DNA from: a virus
Virus record (IMG/VR): IMGVR_UViG_3300036823_000129
Location: 1 to 57,456 of that record
DNA: 57,456 nt
Direction: 5' to 3' (one strand)
Part shown: piece by piece, positions 16,817 to 57,356 of the stretch
How the letters are laid out: every line of letters begins with the position of its first letter
Numbering within the stretch: the stretch's first letter is position 1
Made by a program: the position numbers and the translations under genes
The notes under the pieces: generated by a model
Database searches by the model: none
Seen by the model: the letters and a program-made list of their open reading frames with translations, nothing else
Told to the model about the DNA's origin: nothing

Positions 16817-17296
16817 TCTGGCGCTCGACGATCGAGACCGACATCGTCGCGAACGAGCTCGCCGACCGGCACTACAGCCGCCAGACCCCCGGGTGCGGAC
16901 AGGTCGGGCCGCCCGGCTCGAGGATCGTCCTCGTCAGCATCTGCGGTCGCGCGCTGTGGATCAGCCAGTACACCCGCTATCCGGACGACGGCCTCGACGC
17001 CTACCGCTGCTCCATCTTCCGGAACGAAGGCGCGGGGCTCTCCTCGACGCTGATCGCCGCGGCGATGGAGGTCACCGAGGAGAACTGGGGGCCAGCGCCT
17101 GACGGGTGGGTGACCTGGGTCGACGTTCGGCGGATCCGGTCAACGAACCCGGGCTATTGCTTCCTCGCGGCTGGCTGGAGCCGCGACGACGGGTGGTCGC
17201 CCGCGCGGGGGCGCCGCGGCCGCGTTCGGCTTCGCGCCGTTGCGAAACGGGGGGGGGCTTCAGCAGAAGCAGCTTGCCCTTGGAGCCGCGGCATGA
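16813..17296 (+). pseudogene. Phage protein with poly-G frameshift
   Basis: The frame from GTG 16813 encodes a recognisable phage protein (IWRSTIETD...ANELADRHYSRQ...GPGSRIVLVS-type pattern; VTWVDVRRIRSTNPGYCF...AGW). It continues without a stop into the Dam gene through nine G residues (17249-17257). If one G is removed, the frame instead ends ...LQQKQLALGAAA and stops at TGA 17294-17296, overlapping the Dam ATG by ATGA, exactly the local pattern. Either one G is a sequencing or replication slip, or slippage makes two products. Function unknown. Confidence 0.65.
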
Positions 17297-30134: not shown

Positions 30135-30817
30135 GCTCTTTGTGACATGGGCGCCGTGCGCGGAAGGATCCAGACTCCTGTGCGGTCACCAGGGCACGGC
30201 GCGTCGCGCGGGATTGTTCCGGCGTAGATATCGTCGATGACTGTGCTGGATTGGCTGCATCCGAAGCCGACGAGGCCTGAGCCGATGTATGTGGCGTCCG
30301 TGTCGGTGTAGCTGAGGACTTCGTTCCATCCGCTGCCCTGGTTGATCCAGAGGTCGATGGTGAAGCATCGGATCCGCATCCCGATCTTGTCGCCGCTATT
30401 CACCGTTTGTGTCGCTGACGCGATCACGACTGCGGTACCGCCGACGGACTTTTGAATCTGCCACGCTGATGCGCTGCCCGAGGTGAATCCTCCGACCGTG
30501 AGACGGTAGAGCTGGTCGTGATCTGATTGCACCCGCACGCAGAGGTCAGCCTGGTTGTCGTTGCCGCCGCTGATCGAGCCGCTCGTCGTTTTGACTGTGA
30601 CGTAGACCTCGCAGTCGGGCCCGAACTTCTGTGGTGTCCAAAACGTCTCTTCCTCGTTGATGTGGGGGTTGACGAGCGTGTTCGTTACGGCGTCGCCGAC
30701 TCTCTCGAGGACGCCGGCGAGGCCGCCGACAGGCGACCAGTTACCGCCCTCAGAGAGGGGGTTCTCGTCGGGACCGGTGAAGCTAGATAGAAGGGCTGCG
30801 TAGTCGCCGAAAGCCAT
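30131..30817 (-). CDS. Tail tip or receptor-binding protein, lectin-like
   Basis: A 228-residue beta-rich protein with a jelly-roll-like sequence (FGPDCEVYVTVKTTSG, LYRLTVGGF, KIGMRIRCFTIDLWINQGSGW) as in concanavalin/LamG domains. It has no signal peptide. It stands after the tail genes, so it probably decorates the tail tip and binds host sugars. ATG shares a base with the preceding glycosyltransferase stop. Confidence 0.6.
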   Translation of the reverse strand: MAFGDYAALLSSFTGPDENPLSEGGNWSPVGGLAGVLERVGDAVTNTLVNPHINEEETFWTPQKFGPDCEVYVTVKTTSGSISGGNDNQADLCVRVQSDHDQLYRLTVGGFTSGSASAWQIQKSVGGTAVVIASATQTVNSGDKIGMRIRCFTIDLWINQGSGWNEVLSYTDTDATYIGSGLVGFGCSQSSTVIDDIYAGTIPRDAPCPGDRTGVWILPRTAPMSQRA

Positions 30818-31683
30818 CAGGTTCCGAGGTAGTGGCCGAGCTCCACGAAGAGCGCGTCTGGCGGCATGGGTTTCTTGTCGCTAAGGCTGTTTGCGGCGTT
30901 GGAGAGGGCGCGGAGCGGTTCGACTCGGCTCGGGCGCTCCCTCCAGGCGCGTAGGAGCTCGTCGGCGCCCTCATCGAAGCTCACGTAGGTCGATAGCAGG
31001 CAGCCGAGCTGGTAGCGGCTGTAGAAGAGCTCCTCGTCCCAGCCGCCCATCCTGAGCCGGCGCCGGTACATCTCGATCGCCCGTTCCCACTGACCTGTCT
31101 CGCGAAGGGTCTGTGCGAGATAGAAGACCGAGCGGCTATCGGTCGGGTCACGTTCGACGGCCTGGTCGAGGAGCTGTAGGTAGGTGTCGGAGCGGCCTTC
31201 GCGTGTGCCTCCGTCGGCGCGGTGGGTGATCTTGAGGCTGGCGGTCGCTTCTTGGCGGAAGGGGCCGTCATGCTCGAGGTATTCGTGAACGGGCCCGATG
31301 TAGCGCCACCGGCCGTCATTTCGGATCAGCCGCGGCAGTTGGTGAATGGTTTCGCCGGTCCGGATGGTGACCATGTAGGCGTCGACGTCACCGGCGAGGT
31401 CTGGGATGTCCCCTTCGACCGTGTCGTCGGCGTCGATGATCAGCAGCCAGTCTCCACGCGAGGCGTTGAGCGCGCGGTTGCGGTTCGTGGCGAAGTCTGC
31501 CCAGTCGTGACGCTCGATCCGGCCGGGTAGATCGCCGAGCACGTACTTGGCGATCTTGCGCGTTCGGTCGGTCGAGCCGGTATCGCAGATCGTCCAGGAG
31601 TCGATAAGTGGCTTTGCCGACTGTAGGCAGCGCTCGATCACGTCGGCCTCGTTCTTGACGATCATGCAGAGTCCGACCGTCAC
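30817..31683 (-). CDS. Family 2 glycosyltransferase with TPR-like tail
   Basis: A 288-residue GT-A enzyme: GLCMIVKNEADVIERCLQS, the CDTGSTDRT motif, and DAD at 84-86 (LLIIDADD). The C-terminal half has helical repeats (FYLAQTLRETGQWERAIEMYRR). It transfers a sugar to an unknown acceptor. It lies inside the tail fibre genes, so tail or surface glycosylation is plausible. Confidence 0.85.
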   Translation of the reverse strand: MTVGLCMIVKNEADVIERCLQSAKPLIDSWTICDTGSTDRTRKIAKYVLGDLPGRIERHDWADFATNRNRALNASRGDWLLIIDADDTVEGDIPDLAGDVDAYMVTIRTGETIHQLPRLIRNDGRWRYIGPVHEYLEHDGPFRQEATASLKITHRADGGTREGRSDTYLQLLDQAVERDPTDSRSVFYLAQTLRETGQWERAIEMYRRRLRMGGWDEELFYSRYQLGCLLSTYVSFDEGADELLRAWRERPSRVEPLRALSNAANSLSDKKPMPPDALFVELGHYLGT

Positions 31684-32465
31684 AGGCCAGCCTGGTAATG
31701 GGCAAGCACCCGAGTCGCTGAGAGAGCGTTGCCGTTGTAAATGGCGACCTCGTCGATCGCGCCACTGAACCAGGTGTTGTCGGTTCGGTTTCGCGCGATA
31801 TACGTCCAGTCGAAGCTGGTGAAGCCACTGTTTGCGGTGTCGGTGGCGGTCGCAACTGAGACGCCGTCAACGTAGATCGTCCAGACCTTGCCGGTCGTCC
31901 TCGTAACGGCGATGTGATGTCGTTTGAGGTCGTTGTATTTCGGGGTGCTGGCGGGAGCGACGAGCCCGACGTTGCCGTTGCAGCGCATTACGATCTGCGC
32001 CGTCCCTGTTGCGCTTATCAGGATGTGGAGGATCTGGGGTGAGCCGCCTGTGCTGTTCCGAGCACACCAAAGGGATTGGCCGCCCGAGGCTGTCAGGCCG
32101 GGCCCGAGCATGAACCAGGCGTCGAACGACCACGCGGTTGTTGCTGTCGCGATCGAGGGAACGCTCGCGGTAAGGACGTCCTGCGTGCTCCCGTTGAAGA
32201 CAACAGCTGTGTTCGGATCGTTACCGAGCAACGAGGGGTAGCCGAGCGCCGGTGTGCCCTCATACGTGCCGGTGTTGCTGTTGCCTGAAGCATCGGCAGC
32301 GGAAGTACCGGTCAACTCCCCGAGCCTGTAGTAGGCGGTGGGGCTATCGGCGAGAACAGCGGCTTTGTAGGCCTCGATCGGGACGGAAGGCACCTGTGCT
32401 CGTGATGGCCGGAAGATCGAGGAGACCTGTCCGCTGACCCACATCTTTTTCTGGCTTGCGAGCAT
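31680..32465 (-). CDS. LamG-domain tail protein
   Basis: A 261-residue protein. Residues about 60-255 form a LamG/concanavalin-like domain (YRLGELTGTSAADASGN, WSFDAWFML, HHIAVTRTTGKVWTIYVDGV, GAIDEVAIYNGNAL). Such domains bind glycans in phage tail fibres. ATGA overlap with its neighbours. Likely part of the receptor-binding apparatus. Confidence 0.8.
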   Translation of the reverse strand: MLASQKKMWVSGQVSSIFRPSRAQVPSVPIEAYKAAVLADSPTAYYRLGELTGTSAADASGNSNTGTYEGTPALGYPSLLGNDPNTAVVFNGSTQDVLTASVPSIATATTAWSFDAWFMLGPGLTASGGQSLWCARNSTGGSPQILHILISATGTAQIVMRCNGNVGLVAPASTPKYNDLKRHHIAVTRTTGKVWTIYVDGVSVATATDTANSGFTSFDWTYIARNRTDNTWFSGAIDEVAIYNGNALSATRVLAHYQAGL

Positions 32466-32818
32466 CAGCTGATCCGGTTTGCGTAGCCCCAGATCACGAC
32501 GACGTTCGCGGCGTCGGCCGCGGCCTTTACGACCAGCGAGTTGCGAAGGATGAGGTCAGCGACAACGAGAGTGAGCCCAGCCTGGACGGGGATGGTCTGG
32601 ACGATCAAGTCGTCCGGGCTTGTCGATCCTCCCCAGCCGAGCGTGAGAATTCTGACCGCCGTGTCGCTGTTGTATGCGAACAGCGTGATGTTGTCGGGAA
32701 GGGTTGCGTCGCTTGTCGCGGCGTGGATCGTGGTTCCTGATCCAATGCTGGTCGCCGCGACCTTGATCCCGCGGCCATCGGTCGAGCCGCTCAGGACGAT
32801 CTTGCTGTACGCGCTCAT
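32465..32818 (-). CDS. Small tail-associated beta protein
   Basis: A 117-residue beta-rich protein ([30 protein letters not shown]-type strands). It occurs between collagen-like and LamG fibre genes and may be a fibre head or trimeric accessory. The start overlaps the collagen-like gene stop. Family not recognised. Confidence 0.55.
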
Positions 32819-33582
32819 GCGTAGACCTCCACGCTGTTGATTAGGCTGGAGTCGTCGGGGTTGGCGACACCACTTCCGCCTGCCGCGCCGGTCGCGCCCG
32901 TGGCGCCTGTCGCACCTGAACCTGTGGCGCCTGTCGCTCCCGTAGCGCCCGTCGGACCGGTGCCTCCGGTTCCACCAGTCGCACCCGTAGCACCGGTCGC
33001 GCCTGCTCCGGTGCCTCCCGTAGCGCCCGTCGCGCCCGTGGCTCCGGTTCCACCAGTCCCTCCTGTGGCTCCGGTGTGCCCAGTGGCCCCAGTGCCGCCG
33101 GTCCCTCCGGTGCCGCCGGTCGCTCCGGTGATGCCAACCACCTCCGCCTTGAACGTCACGATTCCTGTCCCGGGGTCAAAGACGAGCGTTCCGATCCCGT
33201 CCCCGTCGCTCCCATTCGATGTGGGGAGGCGACTTGTCCCTGTCGCCGCGACAGTGCAAAGAGCGGCCGGAACTACCGTTACCTCCGACCCAGGCCCTGG
33301 GCTTGTCTCGCCGCCGGTCACCCCGCCGCGGAACTCCGTCAATCCATCGCCGCGAAGACGCACCGCGAACGGCTCCGCGCCGCTCCCGATGTTCGTCCAC
33401 GGCGACGTGAAGGGAGGCGGCCCGGGCGTCTGCCCGGTCGCGTAAGGCGAAGGGTTCGCCGCAAGGAGATCATCGACATCATCCACGCCCTCCGTTCCGA
33501 ACGTCACCCAGGGGCCGTCGATCGGGTCCGAACTCCCCGCCTGGTGGGTGTCGTTGTGTCTGCTTGGGAACCAGCGCGGCAT
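32815..33582 (-). CDS. Collagen-like tail fibre protein
   Basis: A 255-residue protein with an N-terminal globular part (about 1-150), a long run of Gly-x-Thr/Ala triplets (GATGGTGGT type, about residues 150-235) and a short C-terminal cap. Collagen-like shafts trimerise in many phage tail fibres. The DNA is a GC-rich 9-base-periodic repeat that could vary in length. It shares one base with the next gene. Confidence 0.85.
32860..33130 (-). repeat. Collagen-like triplet repeat in DNA
   Basis: A run of repeated 9-base units (mostly Gly-Xaa-Thr codons) encodes the collagen-like shaft. The DNA is low complexity on both strands; the opposite strand reads as PVAPVAPV-type open frames that are artefacts. 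Confidence 0.8.
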
Positions 33583-41970: not shown

Positions 41971-43443
41971 TTAGGTGTGCTGGACCTGGAGCACCCGGAA
42001 CGCGTTCGCCGTCAGGACCTGCGACGAGTTCCGCCAGTAGGCGTACAGGCCGCGGGAGCCGAGCGGGTAGCCCGTCCCGGTGTCGAACAGGTGTGGGATG
42101 AACTCGACGCTCATCCCGATCCGGTCGACGACGAGGAACTGCTCGAAGTCGCCGAGCACCGCGATGTACTCGCCGCCCGTCGAGGTGAGCTTCGACATGG
42201 CCGACGCGCGCCATGCCGGGTAGCCGAGCAGCTGGAAGCCGGTGTTGCCGCCGTCACCGCGGCCGCTTCCCTGCTGCACCGGGATGAAGATGTTGAAGGT
42301 GTCGTCCGTGACCGACCGGACGGCGTTGTAGAACGCGCGGTTCGCGACGAAGCACGAGTTCGGCTCGAAGCGGTCGGCGACCGCGTTCTCGAGCAGATAG
42401 AGGTCGTCGCGGGCGAACGCGTTCACGGACGCCGTCTCGACGATGATCGAGCCGCCGACCGCCTCGAGCGCGGTCAGGAGCCCCTCGGGCTCGTGCGAGC
42501 CGTGGCCGGCACCGAAGAAGAACTTCTGTGCTTCGAGGACGTCCTTGGCGTCGGCGAACAGCTTCGACAGCTCGGCCTCGACGCCGATCCAGTCCTGGCT
42601 GACCTCGATCGAGAGCGGCACGAACGCCTGCGCCTTCTCGACCTCGAGGACCGGCTGGGCGAGCGTCGGGCTGTTGTCGCTCGCCGGCGTGAGCTCGGGC
42701 CCGTAGGACGCGACGACACCGTCCGACGTCGTGACGCCGAGCCACTGGTGCCCGGTGATCTGCGCCTGACGCGAGATCTGCCGGATCGGGTTGACCGCGC
42801 CGTTCGACGCGAGGATGACGGTCGGGTCGAGCGTGTACGGGATCGCGTAGCCGCCGTCGCTGGGCGTGCCGATCGTCAGGGCGTACATGTCGAGCGCCTG
42901 CTTCTCGGTGCCGTTGATCGGGAGCCCGCGGACGGCCTTGCTCCACGCGCGGCGGTACTGGTCGGAGCCGGTCGCGAGCATGTGCCGCGCGAACGATCCG
43001 TCCTGGGTGTCGTTCGCGAGGAGCTTCAGCACGTGCGCCTTCGCCTTGCCCTCGTTGATGTTCTCGTTCGGGATCTGGGCGATCTCGAGCGCGCGCTTCG
43101 CCCCGTCCTTGAACAGGGAGCCGAGCTCGTCGATGCTCCGGGCCCGGGAGCGGTACCCGGCGATGTCCCAGACGTTCTCGTTCGCCTCGGGCGAGCGGGT
43201 GCTGAACGACCCGATCTCGACGCGGCTCGCGGCCGGTGCGGCGGCACCCTTCTCCTGCAGCATCGCCTTCCGCTCGCGCATCTCCGTGACGGTGGCCTTG
43301 AGGTTCTGCCACTCCTCCTGGAGGTCGTCGAACTCGCTCTTGGCGTCGGCCGGCATCAGCTCACCGGCGAACGTCGCGTCGAGTTCCTCCTGGCGCGCGC
43401 GGATCTCGTCCTGACGCGCGACCAGCTCTTCGATCGTCTTCAC
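41971..43443 (-). CDS. Major capsid protein (internal start form)
   Basis: The HK97-fold capsid portion of the longer ORF. GTG at 43443 lies 6 bases after AAGGAG, so it may initiate independently to give a 490-residue protein. It starts with a coiled-coil delta-type region (KTIEELVARQDEIRARQEE) and contains the HK97-like core (GGYAIPYTLDPTVILASNG, APASDNSPTLAQP, EVSQDWIGVEAEL, FQLLGYPAWRASAM). A stoichiometric excess of capsid over protease would need such a start. Confidence 0.65.
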   Translation of the reverse strand: MKTIEELVARQDEIRARQEELDATFAGELMPADAKSEFDDLQEEWQNLKATVTEMRERKAMLQEKGAAAPAASRVEIGSFSTRSPEANENVWDIAGYRSRARSIDELGSLFKDGAKRALEIAQIPNENINEGKAKAHVLKLLANDTQDGSFARHMLATGSDQYRRAWSKAVRGLPINGTEKQALDMYALTIGTPSDGGYAIPYTLDPTVILASNGAVNPIRQISRQAQITGHQWLGVTTSDGVVASYGPELTPASDNSPTLAQPVLEVEKAQAFVPLSIEVSQDWIGVEAELSKLFADAKDVLEAQKFFFGAGHGSHEPEGLLTALEAVGGSIIVETASVNAFARDDLYLLENAVADRFEPNSCFVANRAFYNAVRSVTDDTFNIFIPVQQGSGRGDGGNTGFQLLGYPAWRASAMSKLTSTGGEYIAVLGDFEQFLVVDRIGMSVEFIPHLFDTGTGYPLGSRGLYAYWRNSSQVLTANAFRVLQVQHT

Positions 43444-44871
43444 GTTCTTCTCCTTGTCGTTGGTCGCGTTCGCCGGCGGCGTCGCGGTTGCTTCCAGCTC
43501 CAGATCAAGCGCGGAGCCCTTCTTTGCGTCGAAGTCGTCGAGGTGGCGTTGCAGGTGCGCCTTCACGCCGTCCTTGTCGCCCTCGGGGATGTCGCTGTCG
43601 TCGAGACGGGCGAGCCCGTCACGGACAGCGGAGATCACCGCTGGGCCTTCGACCTTCGTGTGATGCGGGAACTTCCAGTCGCTCTTCGCGTCCGGGAGCC
43701 CGTCGTCGTCGGTGTCGTTGTCGTCGGTCGAATCGGCGAACCACGCGAACACCGACTTCCACTCGGCCTGCTTGCCGTCGGGGAGCGCCTTCTCCACCTC
43801 ACCGGCATCCCAGGGCTCGTCGATGACCTCGGTCGAGTGCGGCGCGATCGCCCCGGCGAGCACCCCGACCGTCGTGGCGGGCGGCATCACGATCACCGGG
43901 CCCTGACCCTCGCCGAACGACGTGACATCGACCTCCGCGAACGTCCCGAGTCCCGGAACGAGCGCCGCCATCGGCAGCGCGAGCTCGGCACTGCGACGCC
44001 GCGAGACGCCCGGCGCTGCCTTCCCGCCCGAGAGCTTCCCGATCGTGTCCGCCAACGTCCCGACGCTGTCGGCCATCCCGGCCTTCACCGCCTCGGCGGC
44101 GTTCACCATCCGGCCCTGCCCGAACCCGTCGATCACGTCCTGCTGCGACACCCCGCGTCCCTTCGCGACCGCCGCGGTGAACATGCCGTAGAACTCGTCG
44201 ACGTTCGCCTGAGCGGCCTCGAGCGCCTCCTCGGAGAGCGGCCCGAACGGCGACCCCTCCGTCTTGTACTTCCCCGCGGAGATCAGCGTCGTCTTGACGC
44301 CCATCTGCTCCTGCATCCCCGACACGTCCTGGTGCGCCGAGTACACGCCGATCGAACCGACCGCACCCGACGGCGTCACGACGACCTCGTCGCAGCACGC
44401 CGCGATCCAGTACGCCGCGCTCGCGGCCTCCGTGTTCGCGACCGCCACGATCGGCTTGCCCTTCCCCCGCATCGCGAGGATCGCCGCGCCGGTCTCCGGA
44501 ACCATGTCCGTCGAACCACCAGGGCTGTCGATGTCCAACACGACCGCGGTGATCTGCGGGTTCTGCATCATCGCCTGCAGGTCACCGAGGAACGAATCGA
44601 GGGCGCAGCCCCCGGAGATCTCGCTCATCAGCCCGGCCTTCGGCGTGATCACGCCCTGAACGGGCAGCACGCCGACCGCGCCCTGCGTCGGCACCACGGT
44701 TTCCCGCTGCCGCCGGGCGGCTTCGAGCTCGGCCCGGATCTCGTCCGGGGTCAGTCTGACTCCTTCGACTCTACGATGAACGATCTCGACGATCGTTGCC
44801 AGCCGTTCCGGCCGCATCGCCCAAGGCGTGTTGAGCACGAGGTTAACCACGTGCCGGTATGGCCTATCCAC
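41971..44871 (-). CDS. Prohead protease fused to major capsid protein
   Basis: One uninterrupted frame of about 966 residues. Residues 55-290 are an S49/SppA-like protease (LDIDSPGGSTDMV, NTEAASAAYW with Ser151, ISAGKYKTEG with Lys201). An acidic linker region follows (about 310-470), then the HK97-type capsid protein. The usual arrangement is separate genes. GTG 44871 is preferred over ATG 44889 because AAAGGAGG sits just before it. The fused protein could be a processing precursor. Confidence 0.85.
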   Translation of the reverse strand: MDRPYRHVVNLVLNTPWAMRPERLATIVEIVHRRVEGVRLTPDEIRAELEAARRQRETVVPTQGAVGVLPVQGVITPKAGLMSEISGGCALDSFLGDLQAMMQNPQITAVVLDIDSPGGSTDMVPETGAAILAMRGKGKPIVAVANTEAASAAYWIAACCDEVVVTPSGAVGSIGVYSAHQDVSGMQEQMGVKTTLISAGKYKTEGSPFGPLSEEALEAAQANVDEFYGMFTAAVAKGRGVSQQDVIDGFGQGRMVNAAEAVKAGMADSVGTLADTIGKLSGGKAAPGVSRRRSAELALPMAALVPGLGTFAEVDVTSFGEGQGPVIVMPPATTVGVLAGAIAPHSTEVIDEPWDAGEVEKALPDGKQAEWKSVFAWFADSTDDNDTDDDGLPDAKSDWKFPHHTKVEGPAVISAVRDGLARLDDSDIPEGDKDGVKAHLQRHLDDFDAKKGSALDLELEATATPPANATNDKEKNVKTIEELVARQDEIRARQEELDATFAGELMPADAKSEFDDLQEEWQNLKATVTEMRERKAMLQEKGAAAPAASRVEIGSFSTRSPEANENVWDIAGYRSRARSIDELGSLFKDGAKRALEIAQIPNENINEGKAKAHVLKLLANDTQDGSFARHMLATGSDQYRRAWSKAVRGLPINGTEKQALDMYALTIGTPSDGGYAIPYTLDPTVILASNGAVNPIRQISRQAQITGHQWLGVTTSDGVVASYGPELTPASDNSPTLAQPVLEVEKAQAFVPLSIEVSQDWIGVEAELSKLFADAKDVLEAQKFFFGAGHGSHEPEGLLTALEAVGGSIIVETASVNAFARDDLYLLENAVADRFEPNSCFVANRAFYNAVRSVTDDTFNIFIPVQQGSGRGDGGNTGFQLLGYPAWRASAMSKLTSTGGEYIAVLGDFEQFLVVDRIGMSVEFIPHLFDTGTGYPLGSRGLYAYWRNSSQVLTANAFRVLQVQHT
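43450..43455 (-). promoter_or_regulatory. Internal ribosome binding site before capsid part
   Basis: Minus-strand AAGGAG lies six bases ahead of GTG at 43443, inside the protease-capsid ORF, at the junction of the acidic linker and the capsid delta-type region. Correct position and spacing suggest independent translation of the capsid. This is an inference from sequence alone. Confidence 0.55.
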
Positions 44872-46317: not shown

Positions 46318-46544
46318 GACTTCCGCTCCGCCAGGAACACGACCGCGCTCACCGCGGCGCCGGCGACGATCACGCCCGCCGGCCGATAGATCATCCCCGT
46401 GCCGCCCGCGACGAGCAGCAAGCCGCCAAGGAACAGCACATCCGGCGCGAGCTTCCATGCCCAACGGCGGCCGCGCGCGAGTACCGGCGTGGTCTTCGAA
46501 CGCAGGAGCGCCAGGACAGCGAGGAGCCGCACGCTCATACCCAT
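46314..46544 (-). CDS. Small membrane protein between terminase and portal
   Basis: A 76-residue protein with two hydrophobic stretches (VLFLGGLLLVAGGTGMIY and AGVIVAGAAVSAVVFLA), overlapping the end of the terminase gene by 10 bases and the portal start by four. Two-pass membrane topology is predicted. Function unknown; possibly host-envelope related. Confidence 0.55.
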   Translation of the reverse strand: MGMSVRLLAVLALLRSKTTPVLARGRRWAWKLAPDVLFLGGLLLVAGGTGMIYRPAGVIVAGAAVSAVVFLAERKS

Positions 46545-48028
46545 GCCGCCAGCATTGAGGACTCGTCCTTCCCGAACTCCTCGCTCGCGACCGAGTTCAC
46601 CATCGCGCCGGCGACGAGCGCATCGATCACACGCGCTTCCTGATCGCCACCCTGCCGTGTCGAGCTCGGACGGTCAAACCGCGCGCCGCCCCCCGACAAC
46701 CCTCGCGCGATCGCGTTCAGCACATGCCGCGTCAAACCGAGATCCCCGGAATGGCGCAACCAGCCCTCACGGAGCGCCTCCATGAACCGCTCGTAATCGA
46801 GCGCCGCCATCGCGTTCCCCTGCGACCGGTCGACGACGCGGCAGCCGAGCTCGTCCTCGGCCCACCGCGCGAGCTGCTCCGCACGGGTCATGTCCATCAC
46901 GAGCGTGTGGATCGGATTCCTGGCGTGCACAGTCATCAGGGCCTTCTCGACGAGATGCGGGTCGAGCGACGTTCCGTCCCGCGGCGGCGTCAGCACCTCG
47001 GCCGGCCCGAACAGCCGATACTCGAGATCGCGCATCCACAGCGGCACAAGCGACGTCGTATCCCACTTCCATCCGACATCGAGGCCGGCCCACACCGGCT
47101 CATCCTCAGGAATCGGATCCGCGCTGAATGCGGCCGCCCATTCGATCTCCTGCACCGCGGCCGAGTCTGCGCGGGTCGCGAGGTTGCACGTGAACCGGCG
47201 CCAATGCGGCAACGTCATCGTCGCCGTTCCGCGCTTCTCCGCGAGATCGTCGACCGTGATCCCCGTGAACGGATTCGCGAGCTTCACGACGTCCATGTCC
47301 TCGACGTCGCCGTCCTCGGGCACCGCGTACTCGTGGAACGAGATCCCGTTCGAGCGGCATCGCGTGAATCCGGGCCGTCGCTCAACCACGGGGACGGTCT
47401 GCCGGATCAGCTCGCGCGTCGTCTCGAACTCGCCGCCCGGCTCGCCGGCGGTCGAGATCGTCGAGAGCTGCCCGCCGCGCTTCCCGAGCTTCCCGCGCCA
47501 TGTCCGGTAGAGCCGCAGGTCCTTGTGCCGGTGGAGCTCGTCGAGGAACGCGTCGGTCGGGATCACGCCGTCACCGGTGCCGGCGTCGGCGGCGAAGACC
47601 TGCATCCGGCCGCCCGTCTCCGTGTTCTTGATCCGCCGGTAGCCCTCCTGGCACTTGATGAACTTCTTCAGCCGCTCCGACCTGATCACGAATCCCTCGG
47701 CCTGGCGGTAGCCGATCTCGGCCTGGTCGCGTGACGACGCGGCCCATGGCACCGCGGCGAGCGGGCGGAACTCGACGATGTAGACGACCAGGCCGCCGAG
47801 GTTCGTTGTCTTCGCGTTCCCCTCGGGCACCAAAAGCCAGTTCTCGGGTACCCCGGCGAAGTAATCCTGCAGGTAGAGGAGGAAGTACGGCTCGACGATC
47901 CACGGCTCGCCGTTGTCGAGCTCGAGCTCGGCCGCCCACGTCTCGAAATGCTCGACGGTGAACGGATGCTGCTCGGTCGCGTCGGCGCGCGGCCGGCGCT
48001 TACGCGAAGTCGCCGGCGCGATCGTCAC
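46535..48028 (-). CDS. Terminase large subunit
   Basis: A 497-residue protein. The ATPase domain has PEGNAKTT (about 68-75) as its Walker A-like loop (Lys73 kept, not the classical GKS) and Walker B VIPTDAFLDELH (155-166). The C-terminal nuclease has LDVGWKWDTTSL and DALVAGAMVNS acidic positions. It drives DNA packaging and cleavage. GTG start overlaps the HNH stop. No convincing small terminase is seen. Confidence 0.9.
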   Translation of the reverse strand: MTIAPATSRKRRPRADATEQHPFTVEHFETWAAELELDNGEPWIVEPYFLLYLQDYFAGVPENWLLVPEGNAKTTNLGGLVVYIVEFRPLAAVPWAASSRDQAEIGYRQAEGFVIRSERLKKFIKCQEGYRRIKNTETGGRMQVFAADAGTGDGVIPTDAFLDELHRHKDLRLYRTWRGKLGKRGGQLSTISTAGEPGGEFETTRELIRQTVPVVERRPGFTRCRSNGISFHEYAVPEDGDVEDMDVVKLANPFTGITVDDLAEKRGTATMTLPHWRRFTCNLATRADSAAVQEIEWAAAFSADPIPEDEPVWAGLDVGWKWDTTSLVPLWMRDLEYRLFGPAEVLTPPRDGTSLDPHLVEKALMTVHARNPIHTLVMDMTRAEQLARWAEDELGCRVVDRSQGNAMAALDYERFMEALREGWLRHSGDLGLTRHVLNAIARGLSGGGARFDRPSSTRQGGDQEARVIDALVAGAMVNSVASEEFGKDESSMLAAWV

Positions 48029-48318
48029 GCAGGCCTTCCCTGCTGAACCGCCTGGCCGGCGCGCGCATTGCAGCTCCGATGCTCAGGCCTGCGCTCGCCG
48101 CCGGCGCCACCTTTGACGACGTCGACGACGTGGCCGGCGACGAACGGATCGTCCTCGCGCGGCCCCTCGCCGCACCGCCAACACGCGGTGGCCGACTTGG
48201 CAACGGCTCTTGCGTCGCGGTGCTCGCGTGTGTCATAGTCGCGGCGCCTCGGATGCTTCGAGCAGCGATTCCCTGAGGCAGCGATCGCACCGCACACCGA
48301 GCAGGCCCGGACGGTCAA
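48025..48318 (-). CDS. HNH endonuclease next to terminase
   Basis: A 97-residue protein: CSVCGAIAASGNRCSKH, then CWRCGEGPREDDPFVAGHVVDV, and RSCNARAG. Cys pairs bind zinc, and the HNH-like AGHVV...H motif is catalytic. Small HNH proteins beside terminase genes are required for packaging nicking in several phages (for example HK97), so this may be functional rather than mobile. TTG start from TTGA overlap. Confidence 0.75.
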   Translation of the reverse strand: MTVRACSVCGAIAASGNRCSKHPRRRDYDTREHRDARAVAKSATACWRCGEGPREDDPFVAGHVVDVVKGGAGGERRPEHRSCNARAGQAVQQGRPA

Positions 48319-48566
48319 TCGGCACCATCCGAAATTTTTCTCGCGGCGATGGCGCGGAATGAAACGGCATCGCTCGATGCCATAGGTCGACCCGCCCCCC
48401 CTAGGTGCAGCTGCTGCTCCACGGCCTGCTCGAGGCCTTCCTGCTCAAGCTCGGCGGCGAGGGCTGCAACCTGGTCACGGTCGTGGTGGAGCATGGTGGC
48501 GCGGCTCGGGAGCTTCCGCAGCCAGCGGCTGTAGGCGAGCCGCTCGGCGATGGTCAAGCTGCCCAC
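48315..48566 (-). CDS. Small helical protein upstream of terminase
   Basis: An 83-residue charged protein with long helices (DRDQVAALAAELEQEGLEQAVEQQ) and a loop (GGAGRPMASSDAVS). It sits where a small terminase subunit would, but the sequence lacks the usual HTH so the role is unproven. GTG start at 48566, overlapping the glycosyltransferase end by 13 bases. Confidence 0.5.
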   Translation of the reverse strand: MGSLTIAERLAYSRWLRKLPSRATMLHHDRDQVAALAAELEQEGLEQAVEQQLHLGGAGRPMASSDAVSFRAIAARKISDGAD

Positions 48567-49231
48567 CGTTCGAGCTGGTGGCGGCGGCGGGCCATGTAGT
48601 ACTCGGTTGCCTGGCGCTTCCGCTGTTTGTCTCGGGCGTCGTGGTCGTGGACAAGCTGGAGGTGGCTGCTCAGATCGATCGCTTCCTCGAGCGGCACATA
48701 GGCGGGGTCTCCGTGGAGCCAGCGGCCGTCGCTTGTGCGGTAGCCGTTGTGGGCGCGCTCGAGGGTGATGCCGGTGTCTGCTCGGTAGATGCGCCTGATC
48801 GGGCTCGCGGTGATGTTCGTGACCTCGATGCCGGCGCGGCGGATCTGTAGGCGCGCGACGTCGAGTTTGGTGCGGGCGAGCGCGCGGCGGATCTCGTTGC
48901 TGTTGCCGTGTTCGATGTATTCGTCGGCGTCGACGACGAGGATCCAGTCGGTTCGGCGGCCGGCTGCTTCGTGCATGAGTGCGGCGCGTTTCCCGACCTG
49001 TGTGGGCCAGATGATTCCGCCGGTGATGAGGACGTCGATGCCGACCTCGCGTGCGGCGTCCTCGATCGCCTGGGCCTGGTCGGGGTTGCTGAAGCTGGCG
49101 CCGTTGGGGAAGTGCTGCCAGGCGCCGTCGTAGGCGATGAGATTGTCGGCGATGCCGCCGAGCGAGGTGATGAGCCGCGCGAGGGTTTCGGGTGTTTCGT
49201 CGTACCAGGCGAGCGCGGCCGTGATGATCAT
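48554..49231 (-). CDS. Glycosyltransferase (family 2-like)
   Basis: A 225-residue enzyme: IITAALAWYDETPETLARLI, DGAWQHFPNG, and DAD at 101-103 (WILVVDADEY). The C-terminus has a HDHDARDKQRKRQATEYY helix. It is the last gene of a sugar-related cassette, upstream of terminase. Donor and acceptor unknown. ATG start at 49231 overlaps the upstream stop. Confidence 0.8.
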   Translation of the reverse strand: MIITAALAWYDETPETLARLITSLGGIADNLIAYDGAWQHFPNGASFSNPDQAQAIEDAAREVGIDVLITGGIIWPTQVGKRAALMHEAAGRRTDWILVVDADEYIEHGNSNEIRRALARTKLDVARLQIRRAGIEVTNITASPIRRIYRADTGITLERAHNGYRTSDGRWLHGDPAYVPLEEAIDLSSHLQLVHDHDARDKQRKRQATEYYMARRRHQLERWAA

Positions 49232-49779
49232 GTTCCGACCGCCGTCTTCGCAGGGTCGATGACGCGGAACTCCCAGCCGTCGACGAATCCGAGGTGGCCG
49301 AGCTCGCGCTGCGGATGCGGATCCCACCTGATCTCCCGGCCGAACATCACGACCAGGTGCAGCCCAGGCGAGAGACCGCCATCGCAGTAGGGGCAGGCGA
49401 TCGAGGGGTCGTGCCGGATCGACGGCCCGGATTCCGGATACGTGAGGTCTGTCCTCGCGGTGCCCTTGCAATGGCTGCACCGTGTCTTGAATCGCGGTGA
49501 GCGGACACTCGCGAGCCACCAGATGTCGCCGGGCCATCCGTTGAGCACCGTCGGGTCGTCTTCGTCGAGGCTGACGTACGCGTTGCCGAGGCGAAGATTC
49601 CGGGCGGCGAGCCACTCGGCCCAGAGCTGCCACCAGTTCTCGTGCTCGACGAAATGCGGGACTTCGAGGAGCGGCAGCTCGAACAGCGACGCGACGCAGG
49701 CGCGCATGCAGTCGCCGGCCACGACCGTGTCGCCGTGCTCGTCGATCACGGAAAGCTGCCACTGCTCGACTGGCGTCAA
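49228..49779 (-). CDS. C39-like cysteine protein of phage family
   Basis: A 183-residue protein with a conserved GDCMRACVASLFELPLLEVPHF segment that resembles papain/C39-like peptidases and their degenerate relatives, followed by a zinc-type pair (CSHCKGTA...CPYCDGG). A His near the C-terminus (HLGFVDGWEFRVIDP) could complete a dyad. Known from phages, function unproven. TTG start by TTGA overlap. Confidence 0.6.
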   Translation of the reverse strand: MTPVEQWQLSVIDEHGDTVVAGDCMRACVASLFELPLLEVPHFVEHENWWQLWAEWLAARNLRLGNAYVSLDEDDPTVLNGWPGDIWWLASVRSPRFKTRCSHCKGTARTDLTYPESGPSIRHDPSIACPYCDGGLSPGLHLVVMFGREIRWDPHPQRELGHLGFVDGWEFRVIDPAKTAVGT

Positions 49780-50438
49780 CGTGTCCCCTTTCTGAGGAGC
49801 TCGATCGCGGATGGGTTCGGGCTGTCGGCGGGCCAACCGAAGTACTCGACCCTCAACCCACGATCGAGGAACGGTGTTTCGTCGAGGTAGGAGCGTCCGC
49901 TCGGCCCTGACAACCAGACGTTCGCGCCGACCTCGGCGGTCATCTCGGCGAGCTGCTCCGAGATCGTCGGCATGTCGTCGCGGTCGTCTGTGACGAGCGG
50001 GCCCGAGCCGATGCCTGCTTCGAGGTCTGACTGACGCACCTCGGCGGTGTCGATCTCGAGCCGGCCGAGCAGGATCCGGTTCAAGGCGATGTTCAGCGCG
50101 GCAAGCCGACGGAACGGACGATGCAGCTCGATCGTGAACGCCTCAGCGAACTCGCGGCCGAAGCGGAGCTCGAGCGTCTTCGCGAGCTTCGTGCGCGCTC
50201 GAAAGGTCGCATCCGCGATCCTGACTGTCTGGATCGGCGCGTACCGGTCGCGGTTGTCGTAGGGCACGACGAGGGGTGTGCCGTCGGCGAGCTGCTGCCG
50301 GTTGACCCATCCGTGCCTGACCATCTGGAAGCGGTCGCAGACGATGAAGACGTCGGCTGCACGGATCTTCTCGGTGACGCTGATCGGGTAGAGCAGGTTG
50401 GGCTGGTGGCCGGTCGCGATGACGTCGCCGACGGTCAT
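49776..50438 (-). CDS. WbqC-like protein
   Basis: A 220-residue protein that resembles the WbqC family: IATGHQPNLLYPISVTEKIRAADVFIV, VRHGWVNRQQL, VVPYDNRDRYAPIQTVRI. WbqC proteins occur in O-antigen and other polysaccharide biosynthesis clusters and are thought to act in amino-sugar or N-acyl modification. Here it belongs with glycosyltransferases and a deacetylase. ATG start by ATGA overlap. Confidence 0.75.
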   Translation of the reverse strand: MTVGDVIATGHQPNLLYPISVTEKIRAADVFIVCDRFQMVRHGWVNRQQLADGTPLVVPYDNRDRYAPIQTVRIADATFRARTKLAKTLELRFGREFAEAFTIELHRPFRRLAALNIALNRILLGRLEIDTAEVRQSDLEAGIGSGPLVTDDRDDMPTISEQLAEMTAEVGANVWLSGPSGRSYLDETPFLDRGLRVEYFGWPADSPNPSAIELLRKGTR

Positions 50439-50797
50439 GTCGTTGAGTCCGGGAGGCGTTCGAAGACACCGTGGTCGATGTAGCCGTGCCAGCACCGTTC
50501 GTTGCGGCTGCCGATGAGGATCGAGTTCGATGAGCCGTCGTTGCGGCGGACGCTGATCGTTCCGTCGTCTTCTTCGCGGACCGTGTGCGCTTCGAGGTTG
50601 CCGAGCCCGTAAGGGCCGAATCCTTCGTCGCTCCATGGGACGGCGACCATCCAGTGCTGGCCTGTGAGGTTGGAAGCGTGCTCAGTGATTTCGCGGGGTG
50701 CGCTCCCGTCGCGGGTGAGCACTTTCCAGTAGTCGCCGGCGTGGATCTCGGCCGGGAGGTCGCCGTGCGGGGTATCGGGTCTCCGACGTCCGATCAT
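50435..50797 (-). CDS. DUF6527-like small protein
   Basis: A 120-residue protein with HWMVAVPWSDEG, a LEAHTVREEDDGTISVRRND region and a closing WHGYIDHGVFERL, resembling the DUF6527 family common in phages. In some phages it is joined to deubiquitinase-like domains, but none is seen here. Function unknown. ATG start with RBS not strong. Confidence 0.6.
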   Translation of the reverse strand: MIGRRRPDTPHGDLPAEIHAGDYWKVLTRDGSAPREITEHASNLTGQHWMVAVPWSDEGFGPYGLGNLEAHTVREEDDGTISVRRNDGSSNSILIGSRNERCWHGYIDHGVFERLPDSTT

Positions 50798-51345
50798 CGG
50801 CGCATCACGAGGAGGAGGTCGTTCGAGCGGTAGCGCTCAACCGTGAAGCTTCTCGCCTCGCCGGCCGCGAACGTGGCGAGATCGGCGGGCTCGTACCGGA
50901 TGCACCGCGGATCGGTGCCGTGGTAGACGCTGACCGCCATCACACGTTCGCAGCCGTCCCAGAGACCGCGGAGCGTCTGGAACGTGAGCGCTTTCGACCA
51001 GTTGTCGGCGAGGTTGAATGTCCCGATGACCGCGACGAGGTCGAACATCCGGCCGGGCTTGACGTGGTGGAACTTCCGGTCGGGATGGGCTGCCTGGGCG
51101 CGGTTCACCATCGCGTGCGCCCAATCGCAGCCGTGGTAGGCGACGTCGTCTTCGACCCAGTCGGCGAGATCTCCGAGTCCGCAGCCGAAGTCGAGCAGCG
51201 TGTCGCCGCTTTTCGGGTCGAGTGCTTTCATGACCGCGTCGAATCGGTCGGTTTGGCCGGATGCTGTCCAGCCGACGGCTTCGAGGGGTGGCTTCGCGGC
51301 CCGGGAGCTCCACGCTGCCGGGGTGTTCGCGATCGCCTCGCTCAT
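50794..51345 (-). CDS. SAM-dependent methyltransferase
   Basis: A 183-residue class I methyltransferase: motif I LLDFGCGLGDLA, then YHGCDWAHAM and FDLVAVIGTFN, with a C-terminal FTVERYRSNDLLLVMR. Substrate is unknown. It could methylate a sugar or nucleotide in the cassette. The ATG overlaps the glycosyltransferase stop. Confidence 0.75.
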   Translation of the reverse strand: MSEAIANTPAAWSSRAAKPPLEAVGWTASGQTDRFDAVMKALDPKSGDTLLDFGCGLGDLADWVEDDVAYHGCDWAHAMVNRAQAAHPDRKFHHVKPGRMFDLVAVIGTFNLADNWSKALTFQTLRGLWDGCERVMAVSVYHGTDPRCIRYEPADLATFAAGEARSFTVERYRSNDLLLVMRR

Positions 51346-52079
51346 TCCGGCGCCTCGTAGTAGATGCGCTTCGCTGCGATCCGGTCGGTTGTCGCCTCGA
51401 CGGAATGCCGGATCTCGATGCCCTGCACGATCGGGAGGATCGAGAGACGCTTGTTCGGGAGCTTCGTCTCGATCGACCGGAGCGCGGCCAGGGCGGCGAG
51501 CTCGAGCGGCGACATCTCGTCGGCGGCCGCGGCGAGCGCCTCGACCAGGTAGACGTGGATCGGTTTGCCGTTCTCGCGGTAGTGGCCTGGAGAGAGGCAG
51601 GTCAGCGTTGGCGACCAGCGGAACCAACGGAGCATCGGCACCGATGCGCGCACGTCGCGGTCAAGCCAGGGGGTTCGGATGGCTAGGTCGTTCGGCTTGT
51701 CGTTGTGAAGGACGATGCAGCCATGCCCAGCCGGGCAGGCCTCCTCGTCGATCGTCCCTTCCAATCGTTCGTCGGCGTCGAGGAGGATGAGGTGGTCACC
51801 TGGGCCTCCGAACGTGAGCAGGTAGTCACGTTTGGACTTATCGCCAGCCCAGAACGGATACTCGGGCTCGACATACTCGGCGCCGGCGGCCCGAGCTGCT
51901 TCGCAAGTTCCGTCGGTCGAGAGGTGCGTGGCCGCGTTCCCGAAGAGCGTCCCGTCGGGGTTGCCCCAGGCGCCGTCGACGACGACGACGCGGTCGCAGC
52001 CGGCCGCGTAGAGCGACTCGATCGCGCCAGTGATCGCGTCCTCTTCATTGAACGCCTGAATCGTGCCGATCACGCTCAC
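51342..52079 (-). CDS. Glycosyltransferase (family 2-like)
   Basis: A 245-residue GT-A enzyme: IGTIQAFNEEDAITGAIESL, VVVVDGAWGN, and DAD at 101-103 (LILLDADERL), and a C-terminal helical domain. Like the product of 48554-49231, it has the DGAW and DAD motifs, so the two are probably related enzymes. Overlaps both neighbours. Confidence 0.8.
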   Translation of the reverse strand: MSVIGTIQAFNEEDAITGAIESLYAAGCDRVVVVDGAWGNPDGTLFGNAATHLSTDGTCEAARAAGAEYVEPEYPFWAGDKSKRDYLLTFGGPGDHLILLDADERLEGTIDEEACPAGHGCIVLHNDKPNDLAIRTPWLDRDVRASVPMLRWFRWSPTLTCLSPGHYRENGKPIHVYLVEALAAAADEMSPLELAALAALRSIETKLPNKRLSILPIVQGIEIRHSVEATTDRIAAKRIYYEAPE

Positions 52080-52294
52080 GAGATCACGACCATCTTCGTC
52101 CCGATCAGATCCGGGGTGACCTCGACCTCGGAGCCATCCACGCGCCGAACGGTGAAGATGCGGTTCCCATCATCGATACCGCCCCAGATCGGATCCTCTC
52201 CGTAGCGGACGTCGATCACCTCAGCCTCGAAGCGTGGATCGTTGCCGCGGAAGACCGCGACGCGTTCACCCACGAGATGGCGACTTACACCCAT
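52076..52294 (-). CDS. Small beta-rich protein in glycan cassette
   Basis: A 72-residue protein (HLVGERVAVFRGNDPRFEAEVIDV, FTVRRVDGSEVEVTPDLIG). It looks like a small SH3-like barrel. Start ATG at 52294 overlaps the deacetylase gene by 10 bases. Function unknown. Confidence 0.5.
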   Translation of the reverse strand: MGVSRHLVGERVAVFRGNDPRFEAEVIDVRYGEDPIWGGIDDGNRIFTVRRVDGSEVEVTPDLIGTKMVVIS

Positions 52295-52797
52295 GTGAGC
52301 GCCCTCGAGCGGCAGATCGTCGGGAGCGCCTCAACCGTCGCCTCGACACCATCGTGCAGCCAGACAGGGCTACCAACCGGAAGCCGCCGCGTCGCCTCGA
52401 CGATCTCGGTCGTCGAGAGGTCGTAATCGCCGAAGCTCGGTTGCAGGTGGCACACGTGGCCCATCGCCTCGGCGATCCGGACGACGTTGCCGTCGTCCCA
52501 CCGCACGAACGGCGGCCGAAAGTCCTTGGGCCAAACACCGGTGAGGCCGAGGATCAGCGCGTCGGTCATCGCGATCTCCGTGGCGATCTCGACCGGGTTC
52601 AGCTCGACGAGCGGACGGTGCGACCACCCGTGGTTCCCGAGCGTGTGGCCCTCCACGAGGATCCGGCCGAGGAGCCGCTCCTGCCCCGCGATTCGGTCAC
52701 CAACGACGAAAAACGTGGCGCGTGTGTGGCGCTCCTTGAGGATGTCGAGGATCCGCGGCGTGGTGCTCGCGTCGGGCCCATCGTCGAACGCGATCAT
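52285..52797 (-). CDS. Polysaccharide deacetylase (NodB-like)
   Basis: A 170-residue deacetylase. It has the N-terminal FDDGPD (Asp5, Asp6), metal-binding HxxxH (His56 and His60 in NHGWSH), and RPPFVRWDDGN motifs of the carbohydrate esterase 4 family. It would remove acetyl groups from N-acetyl sugars of a glycan. No signal peptide, so it acts in the cytoplasm or before export, unlike cell-wall members. Confidence 0.85.
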   Translation of the reverse strand: MIAFDDGPDASTTPRILDILKERHTRATFFVVGDRIAGQERLLGRILVEGHTLGNHGWSHRPLVELNPVEIATEIAMTDALILGLTGVWPKDFRPPFVRWDDGNVVRIAEAMGHVCHLQPSFGDYDLSTTEIVEATRRLPVGSPVWLHDGVEATVEALPTICRSRALTWV

Positions 52798-53528
52798 CTG
52801 GCGCTCCGGTAGACGCGCTGCATTTCGTCGACGAACTCGGCCGGGTAGACCTCGGCGAGGTCAGACCACACCGTGGCGCTCTCGTGAGTGCCGTAGTGGA
52901 GCGAGCAGCCGGCGTAGTCGTTGAGCTGCCCGGCGCGGCTCTTGAAATCGACGAGCTGGAGCGGGTGAAGGTCGAGGTACTCGAGGCGCGGCCGGACGCC
53001 GGCGGCCATGAGCTTCCGCTGCATCGAGGTGTCCATCGCGCGGTCGCGGTCATCCTCGGCCGGGCGGCACCCGACCTTCGCGAGCATCGAGACCGGGATC
53101 GTGCGAACACCATCACCGCCGCGGTAGGTGATGTTCAGGTGCGCGAGCCGGCGGCCGTCCTCGCTCACGACGGTCGAGAGCCGTGAGCATCCGATCTCGC
53201 CTTCCCGTGGGAGCCGCGCCGCGATGAGGGCCGGGTCGACGATGTCGTCGGAGCCGAACGGCACGACGTAGTCGGCGTCGAGCTCGTTCACGGCATGCTC
53301 GATCCCGTCGTTCCATTTCCGTCCGAGCGGCTGGTTCGTCTGCGAGACATGCGCGAAGCCGAGCTCGCGGGCGAGCCGCTCGAACCTGGGTTCGTTCGAG
53401 ATGAGCACCGCGGTCGCGCCGATCGTGGCGGCGAGCTGTTCGCAGGTCCGGCTGAGCTGGCGAAGGCAAGCGGCCGCGATCTTGTGACGGCCATGGCACG
53501 GAACGACGAACACGAGCCGGCTACCCAC
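52794..53528 (-). CDS. Glycosyltransferase-like protein
   Basis: A 244-residue GT-A-fold protein: LVFVVPCHGRHKIAAACLRQL, NQPLGRKWNDGIEHAV, VVPFGSDDIVD. Its SDD is used in place of DxD. It is the first gene of the cassette. GTG start lies within the overlapping end of the small gene at 53521-53682. Confidence 0.7.
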   Translation of the reverse strand: MGSRLVFVVPCHGRHKIAAACLRQLSRTCEQLAATIGATAVLISNEPRFERLARELGFAHVSQTNQPLGRKWNDGIEHAVNELDADYVVPFGSDDIVDPALIAARLPREGEIGCSRLSTVVSEDGRRLAHLNITYRGGDGVRTIPVSMLAKVGCRPAEDDRDRAMDTSMQRKLMAAGVRPRLEYLDLHPLQLVDFKSRAGQLNDYAGCSLHYGTHESATVWSDLAEVYPAEFVDEMQRVYRSAR

Positions 53529-55756: not shown

Positions 55757-56320
55757 CTATTTCCAACCTCGCATCTCACGAGCGAGGTCGGCCGGGTTCG
55801 CGTGCAGATACCGCTGCGTCGTCGCGAGGCTCGCATGCCCCATCAGGAATCTGACCTTCTCGATGTCGAGGCGACGATCGGTGAGCCAGTAGTTGGCCGC
55901 GGTGTGACGGAGGATGTGCGGGTGGAGGTCTTCGATTCCGGCGCGGACGCCGTAGCGCTTCACGGTTTCCCGGAGCTGCGATGTCGCGACGAGCTTCCCG
56001 GTTCGGGTCGTGAAGAACCCGGGCCCAGCCCATCTTTCGGCGCGCCACGCTCGGAGGTAGGGCTCGAGCGCGGGTTCGATCGGGACGACCCGTTCCTTGT
56101 CGCCCTTGCCGTGGACGCGGATGAGGAACTGCTCGAGGTCGACGTCGCGGGGTTTGATCGTGACGACCTCTCCGGCGCGTAGGCCGGCGTAGAGCATCGT
56201 CGCGATCATCGCCCGGTCGCGCCGCGGTGTTTTCCACCTGGGCTCGGGCGCGGCCATCAGCTTGCGGCGCTCGTCGGGCGTGAGGGAGCGGGGGAGACGC
56301 TGCGGCTTGCGCTTCGCCAT
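55757..56320 (-). CDS. Minimal tyrosine recombinase (catalytic domain only)
   Basis: A 187-residue recombinase with Arg48 (LRAGEV), Lys72 (GKGDK), His135 and Arg138 (HILRHT), His162 (MGHAS) and Tyr171 (QRYLH). It contains all catalytic residues but lacks the core-binding N-terminal domain. It may work as a XerC/D-like partner, or be an N-terminally reduced integrase. Its promoter side faces the 188-base repeat. A second, full-length integrase lies at 9664-10719. Confidence 0.85.
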   Translation of the reverse strand: MAKRKPQRLPRSLTPDERRKLMAAPEPRWKTPRRDRAMIATMLYAGLRAGEVVTIKPRDVDLEQFLIRVHGKGDKERVVPIEPALEPYLRAWRAERWAGPGFFTTRTGKLVATSQLRETVKRYGVRAGIEDLHPHILRHTAANYWLTDRRLDIEKVRFLMGHASLATTQRYLHANPADLAREMRGWK

Positions 56321-56338: not shown

Positions 56339-56526
56339 AAGGTCGGGACTGCCTCACGCCGCGCGAGCGGCCCCGAGAGGCCAGCCCACCGTAGCGAATA
56401 GCCGTCGAAAGCCTCCCGGAGTCCAGACAGGCTGTCCAGAAAACCCCTATCTTGCAGGGATTTCGGCCGGATTTAGAGTTAATCTCTAAACGCGGATAGG
56501 TGTCGGAAATCAGTCTTCTTGCCGAC
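56339..56526. repeat. Right copy of the diverged direct repeat
   Basis: Matches 1-188 with two visible mismatches. It starts 19 bases upstream of the recombinase start codon and extends to the small genes at the right end. Contains the two palindromes described for the left copy. Confidence 0.9.
56472..56490. promoter_or_regulatory. Inverted repeat TTTAGAG-N5-CTCTAAA (right copy)
   Basis: Same element as at 134-152. It lies about 150 bases upstream of the recombinase start, so it may be an operator or a binding site for the recombinase or mIHF. Confidence 0.4.
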
Positions 56527-56565
56527 CATCCGCCTGGTTCCCGGGTGCGCCGAAAAGACCGACTG

Positions 56566-56760
56566 CTATCCGCGCGAAACGCTGGCTTTGCGCTTGAGCG
56601 TGATCTGCACGGTCCCGTTCCCGTAGAACTGCATCGCGGCGATCTCCATTCGGCCGTCGGTGATGACCATGTAGTCGTCCTTGATCACCTTCGACTCTGT
56701 CTCGCCGGTCGCGATGTCTTCGCACGTGACGCGCGTGCCCTCGGTCGCCAGCTCGTTCAT
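56566..56760 (-). CDS. Small protein of unknown function
   Basis: A 64-residue protein (GTRVTCEDIATGETESKVI, YGNGTVQITLKRK). ATG at 56760 overlaps the preceding stop. Its position corresponds to the gene at 228-449 in the left end but the sequence is unrelated; both stop at a conserved TAG. Confidence 0.55.
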   Translation of the reverse strand: MNELATEGTRVTCEDIATGETESKVIKDDYMVITDGRMEIAAMQFYGNGTVQITLKRKASVSRG

Positions 56761-57071
56761 GCTGGCGGATTCGTCATGACGACCTCGACGATCGACAGCA
56801 ACCGATCCCGGGTCTTTCTCACGTCCTCGAGCGCATCCCTCGTCGCATCCGAAGTCTGCGTCGTCTCGCCGAGCGCGCGCGCGATCGCGTCCCACTCATC
56901 GAACGACAATCGGATCAGCGGCTTAATCTCGCCGCCAGGATCAGCGCCTTCGTAGATCACCTGGCCGTTCGGATCGAGCCCGACGGCCACGGCGAAGCTC
57001 TCGGCTGGCCCCGTCGCCATCCTGATTTCATAGCCGCGAGTGAACGGGTTGACCTCGACGGTCGCTCTCAC
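56757..57071 (-). CDS. Small protein of unknown function
   Basis: A 104-residue protein (RATVEVNPFTRGYEIRMATG, SFDEWDAIARAL). GTG start overlapping the stop of the gene at 57068. No counterpart in the left end, where a different gene fills this slot. Confidence 0.55.
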   Translation of the reverse strand: MRATVEVNPFTRGYEIRMATGPAESFAVAVGLDPNGQVIYEGADPGGEIKPLIRLSFDEWDAIARALGETTQTSDATRDALEDVRKTRDRLLSIVEVVMTNPPA

Positions 57072-57283
57072 GCCGGCGCCCCGAGCTCGTCGCGTCCGAT
57101 CGGGCCGTGATGCGAGAACACGCGGGTGATCTCGCCGTCGCGGAGCTCGAACTCGATCCGCCAGTTCCCGTCGGCTGACTGGCCGCCCGTGATGAATCTC
57201 GCGACCTCGCTCATCAGGCTCCGGACGAGCGTGTTCAGCGCCGCAGGGTCATGCTCGCAATCGGCCGCATCCATCGCTTGCAC
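57068..57283 (-). CDS. Conserved small protein, right paralogue
   Basis: A 71-residue protein nearly identical to the product of 627-845 (one substitution and a shorter C-terminus). The match, with flanking bases to 57323, shows that the two window ends are homologous. Start GTG. Function unknown. Confidence 0.7.
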   Translation of the reverse strand: MQAMDAADCEHDPAALNTLVRSLMSEVARFITGGQSADGNWRIEFELRDGEITRVFSHHGPIGRDELGAPA

Positions 57284-57356
57284 ATTGTGCAGGACACTAC
57301 GGCTACTTGCAGATGTTTAGAGCACCAGCCGCACCCTGTTCAGCGTTCGTCTCCGA

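Follow-up and report, generated by a model that had tools for sequence, protein, structure and literature searches.

A late-operon glycan-modification cassette in an uncultured soil phage as a putative virion glycosylation pathway

Which molecule is the target of a set of sugar-modifying enzymes encoded beside the head genes of a phage? The question is raised by nine overlapping genes at positions 48554–53528 (minus strand) of the soil phage record IMGVR_UViG_3300036823_000129, which is analyzed here as the window at its entire length of 57,456 bases in IMG/VR. A sequence-only reading had described this block as an overlapping cassette upstream of the terminase that could build or edit a sugar on virion proteins, the host surface or hypermodified DNA. 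The coordinates proved exact, and the enzyme set supports the building or editing of a sugar. Among the three targets left open, the evidence favors the virion, given the coupling of the cassette to late genes and the neighborhoods of its relatives; the host surface and DNA are less favored. We consider it fairly probable that the enzymes of the block are expressed late and act in the cytoplasm, as a pathway that glycosylates virion proteins of the phage itself.

From the GTG start codon of GT1 at 53528 to the stop codon of GT3 at 48554, the cassette encodes, in order, GT1, NodB, a 72-residue protein, GT2, a methyltransferase (MT), a 120-residue protein, WbqC, a C39-like protein and GT3, where GT stands for glycosyltransferase. 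The overlaps between these genes are mostly of 4 nucleotides and once of 10, and overlaps of 4–13 nucleotides continue beyond GT3 through the genes for an 83-residue protein (48315–48566, minus strand), a small HNH-type protein (48025–48318, minus strand), the terminase large subunit (TerL; 46535–48028, minus strand; PF03354, E = 1.8e-6) and a 76-residue membrane protein to the portal gene. The HNH-type gene, which has tblastn matches beside related terminases, is coupled to the TerL gene by a 4-nucleotide overlap. Because the overlaps join the cassette to the terminase and portal genes, we regard it as part of the late operon, and the whole run from the cassette through the portal gene is predicted to form one translationally coupled unit on a single late transcript. 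A simple scan found no separate promoter for the cassette. No transmembrane segment was found in any cassette protein; the cassette thus holds nothing resembling a flippase or a lipid-carrier glycosyltransferase for surface sugars.

The three GT-A-type proteins named by the sequence-only reading were each supported by a different route. GT1 (52794–53528, minus strand, 244 residues) scores under the Pfam cut-off, but its AlphaFold2 model, made with 28 phage relatives, has a pLDDT (predicted local distance difference test) score of 96.5 and matches GT-A structures in the PDB by Foldseek, including 6p61 (TM-score 0.79 for the target), TarP and TarS. A DxD-like GSDD motif is kept in its relatives, and, as judged from the model, GT1 is a GT-A fold glycosyltransferase. 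GT3 (48554–49231, minus strand, 225 residues) matches phrog_7009 (E = 1.3e-17), and its profile matches GmaR (E = 4.9e-6). GT2 (51342–52079, minus strand, 245 residues), which has an LDADE motif of the DxD type and a weak phrog_7009 match, aligns to the GT3 profile by hhalign (95.6%, E = 1e-8) and is a paralogue of GT3.

The deacetylase, likewise, was correctly recognized as a NodB protein lacking a signal peptide. It belongs to the NodB/CE4 polysaccharide deacetylases (52285–52797, minus strand, 170 residues; PF01522, E = 3.1e-26, 92.2 bits, over the Pfam cut-off), and its alignment to the peptidoglycan GlcNAc deacetylase 2c1g in the PDB (E = 8e-22) retains all of the motifs FDDGP, NHGWSH, RPP and HDG. 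Since the protein begins at the first of these, FDDGP, it is presumably cytoplasmic. MT (50794–51345, minus strand, 183 residues) is a putative class I S-adenosylmethionine-dependent methyltransferase scoring about at the Pfam cut-off (Methyltransf_12, E = 1.8e-6), in agreement with the earlier assignment. WbqC (49776–50438, minus strand, 220 residues) also held up, with a PF08889 match (E = 4.1e-19) of 69.7 bits against a cut-off of 21.3. Although its AlphaFold2 model reached a pLDDT of 88.5, no solved relative was found by fold at E < 1e-3 with Foldseek or by sequence, and no publication on its function was found in the literature searched. The top Foldseek matches, PIG-L deacetylases (E = 0.009, TM-score 0.31), were too weak for a function to be assigned from fold.

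Two of the earlier labels fared less well. The C39/papain-like protein (49228–49779, minus strand, 183 residues), whose TTG start overlaps the WbqC stop codon, shows a visible Cys...His...Asp arrangement and a zinc-ribbon-like insert; however, the Pfam C39 family gave no match at E ≤ 1 over 49231–49836, and the only match was to phrog_5845 (E = 2e-17), a family of unassigned function. No DUF6527-like protein was recovered in the cassette: PF20137 had no match there, including in the 120-residue protein (50435–50797, minus strand), and a single sub-threshold match lay elsewhere in the record. Neither the 120-residue protein nor the 72-residue protein (52076–52294, minus strand) matched any family.

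Similar enzyme sets are common to many uncultured phages. When viral contigs were scanned with alignments for GT1, WbqC and MT, 108, 12 and 7 stretches, respectively, were confirmed, the 108 GT1 relatives all lying in IMG/VR; in 50,697 records of cultured phages, single-sequence searches with GT1 and MT found no match. In about 15 distinct contigs, MT sits directly beside WbqC or is separated from it by one gene at most. We examined 42 GT1 loci, which were found via GT1 and not via structural genes and which include some near-duplicates, and checked their structural labels against PHROGs. In 39 of them a terminase, portal, protease, capsid, connector or tail gene lies at most 5 kb away, always on the same strand. 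The position of the module varies: it precedes the TerL gene in the window and L072 and follows it in L073, comes after a capsid or connector gene in L057 and L059, and comes after a second type of capsid gene in L060, L062, L065 and L071. This shifting position suggests that the module moves between unrelated head modules while staying in the late region. Matches to WbqC on plasmids were weak and their neighborhoods uninformative.

The deacetylase itself is exchangeable. The slot occupied by NodB in the window holds a PIG-L protein in L063, L077, L080 and L081 (in the last, PF02585 at E = 1.2e-5, slightly under the cut-off) and a NodB-like protein, recognized by motif only, in L064, L068, L069, L075, L076 and L079. 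That two non-homologous deacetylases share a slot suggests that de-N-acetylation of an amino sugar belongs to the predicted chemistry of the cassette. The six loci with the motif-only protein represent another type of GT1 cassette, in which a GNAT-like protein, the NodB-like protein with a 'GLRHDxD' motif, another glycosyltransferase and a protein of approximately 160 residues occur without WbqC.

If the virion is the target, which of its proteins would receive the sugar? Beyond the genes covered by the sequence-only reading, the record encodes a fourth glycosyltransferase, a membrane acyltransferase (discussed below) and a collagen-like protein. The collagen-like gene (32815–33582, minus strand, 255 residues) carries a Gly-X-Y array with Thr at 93% of the Y positions between 33135 and 33001 and continuing to about 32870. 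A short run of overlapping genes joins it to a gene for a LamG (concanavalin-like) protein (31680–32465, minus strand; PF13385, E = 1e-16) and, on the other side of the latter, the gene for GT-TPR (30817–31683, minus strand), a GT2-family glycosyltransferase (PF00535, E = 4.5e-15) with C-terminal tetratricopeptide repeats (TPR). The best solved relatives of GT-TPR in the PDB are GmaR (E = 1.6e-17) and SunS (E = 3e-10), which we take to be a flagellin O-GlcNAc transferase and a peptide S-glycosyltransferase, respectively. In 18 of 51 loci of the GT-TPR family, a Gly-X-Y array occurs nearby on the same strand, only some of these arrays being Thr-rich.

The collagen association extends to the cassettes themselves. 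With the minimum length set at ten triplets throughout, a Gly-X-Thr array was found 69–690 bp after WbqC in 8 of 15 WbqC cassettes (L058, L060, L062, L065, L071, L073, L138 and L140) and in none of 41 terminase-matched loci without the cassette (Fisher p = 5e-6); restricting the controls to those with at least 7 kb downstream left 0 of 16 (p = 8e-4). A comparable arrangement is known from the spores of Clostridioides difficile, in which the gene directly before bclA3 encodes SgtA, a GT-A enzyme with a C-terminal TPR region; SgtA modifies Thr residues in the collagen-like GPT repeats of BclA3 with beta-O-GlcNAc (PMC7157674). The window, too, places a GT-A enzyme with a C-terminal TPR region near a Thr-rich Gly-X-Y gene, a likeness of architecture; it differs in that the setting is a phage, the enzyme and collagen-like genes are two genes apart instead of adjoining, and the presumed extension and capping enzymes lie 15 kb off. 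By this analogy GT-TPR is most likely the protein-linked initiating transferase, and the collagen-like protein would be the best candidate for the virion acceptor.

From the gene content, the coupling with the head genes, the recurrence of the module and the collagen association, we infer the enzyme activities, the order of the steps, the acceptor and the sugar as follows. Late in infection, GT-TPR would place a sugar, GlcNAc by analogy, on Ser/Thr of a virion protein. GT1, GT2 and GT3 would lengthen the glycan, NodB would strip the acetyl group from an N-acetylhexosamine to leave a free amine, and MT and WbqC would complete the terminal sugar, perhaps through methylation and acyl- or amide-type capping. 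The full version of this scheme, in which GT-TPR initiates on a Gly-X-Thr virion fiber and a mobile late-operon cassette (GT1–3, an exchangeable NodB or PIG-L, MT and WbqC) lengthens the glycan and ends it in an unusual amino sugar cap, is offered tentatively, as a possibility that we do not rate as probable in all its parts.

Phage virion glycosylation has precedents. Capsid or tail proteins are glycosylated in the mycobacteriophages Che8, Corndog and Myrna (Freeman et al. 2023, as cited in PMC12363180 and PMC11256854), and as in the window the glycosyltransferases are phage-encoded and the virion is the proposed target; the text consulted describes no NodB, WbqC or collagen link for the three phages. 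In cluster J, an insertion encoding a glycosyltransferase and a methyltransferase lies between the capsid and connector genes, and the authors of that study did not decide between virus and host as the source of its targets (PMC3706429). Cluster J/Omegavirus genomes resemble the window in having a GT3 homologue (approximately 31% identity) and methyltransferases in the head module, but differ in the site of the insertion, the block of the window being upstream of the TerL gene, and in content, the two Omegavirus loci examined showing neither an MT-WbqC pair nor NodB nor a collagen array. Judged by its genes, the system of the window would be a variant of phage virion glycosylation, with putative membership.

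Several observations weigh against this interpretation. Cultured Vibrio phages of the SIO-2 and VHS1 type carry WbqC beside the terminase without glycosyltransferases, so a virion glycan is not necessarily what WbqC acts on; the protein also has no confident fold match and no function published in the literature searched. Profile comparison showed no homology between GT1/GT3 and the Che8 glycosyltransferases gp109 and gp110 (hhalign probability at most 2%). As for the acceptor, the eight collagen-positive cassettes make up two WbqC subclades and thus represent fewer than eight independent events, 7 of the 15 WbqC cassettes have no collagen-like gene within the examined locus, and the collagen-like gene of the window is not adjacent to the cassette, being approximately 15 kb away.

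Glycosylation of the virion could also fall on the major capsid or tail tube protein instead of the collagen-like protein. These two proteins are published targets in mycobacteriophages (PMC12363180), and the cassettes often directly follow the major capsid gene. The collagen-like genes placed directly after WbqC in more than half of the WbqC cassettes and the SgtA-like architecture of GT-TPR speak against this choice of acceptor, which we rate as a strong alternative though less than probable. It is a sub-case of virion glycosylation, so that our confidence in the one overlaps with that in the other. A different role altogether would be hypermodification of DNA, the transferases, deacetylase, MT and WbqC building a bulky base that shields packaged DNA from restriction. 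The cultured Vibrio phage ON075462.1 (57467–60527; L002) and some 30 of its relatives among the Vibrio phages have WbqC genes, often two, upstream of the terminase, and such pairs lie between replication genes and the terminase. One of these phages, V-YDF132, resembles the window in encoding WbqC, a methyltransferase, an N-deacetylase and a glycosyltransferase directly upstream of the terminase, with ParB there too; unlike the window, it has PIG-L instead of NodB, a GT-B type glycosyltransferase, two WbqC genes and a location after replication genes. The cassette of the relative L077 has no recognized structural genes beside it, and the phage of the window encodes cytosine and adenine DNA methylases elsewhere. 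Against these points, GT-TPR has protein or peptide glycosyltransferases as its closest solved relatives, the cassette is coupled to late head genes, and neither a TET/JBP family member (PF12851), whose absence had already been remarked on, nor a thymidylate-synthase/hydroxymethylase family member (PF00303) was found in the record. The record is near complete, its ends overlapping (1–885 versus 56339–57323, 93–95% identical with one indel). The lack of both enzyme families, together with the late-gene coupling, makes DNA a less likely target, and we regard this role as unlikely.

Modification of the host surface by the prophage, for serotype conversion or superinfection exclusion, would suit a temperate phage, as this one is on the evidence of integrase-family recombinase genes at 9664–10719 (plus strand) and 55757–56320 (minus strand; short, 187 residues). 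It would also suit the membrane acyltransferase 3/O-acetylase (29073–30116, minus strand; PF01757, E = 6e-32; about 6 transmembrane segments), which is possibly a separate host-surface modifier. However, a serotype-converting cassette of the gtr type needs a membrane flippase and a lipid-carrier glycosyltransferase, and neither these nor any other membrane protein, nor a polyprenyl-phosphate glycosyltransferase, is encoded in the cassette. Its coupling to the terminase makes expression in a lysogen unlikely, with no separate promoter in the simple scan, and we hold this explanation to be quite unlikely. Glycosylation of the phage's own virion proteins thus remains our preferred interpretation.

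Other features of the record are worth describing. Its matching ends suggest a genome close to complete, circular-mapping and approximately 56.3 kb long; the record, labeled 'linear', was probably assembled through strain variants. An S49 peptidase and an HK97-type major capsid protein are fused in a single 966-residue reading frame (41971–44871, minus strand), and the two are separate genes in several relatives. The C5-cytosine DNA methylase (14427–16463, plus strand, 678 residues) lies in the early region and has space for a further domain, and the Dam-type N6-adenine methylase (16813–18285, plus strand) has an additional N-terminal domain of 125 residues (phrog_24928) that looks Mom-like by eye. 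Among genome contigs, GT1 had a single match, in a 12-kb phage-like contig (L150) from a Myxococcales metagenome-assembled genome, which was too weak for naming a host.

The known cases of phage virion glycosylation come from a few mycobacteriophages; the module described here is shared by many uncultured phages that differ in capsid type. The analysis names a concrete candidate acceptor, the Gly-X-Thr collagen-like fiber, and gives WbqC, for which the searched literature holds no function, a tractable setting. The virus-or-host question left by the cluster J authors is now approachable with two or three recombinant proteins.

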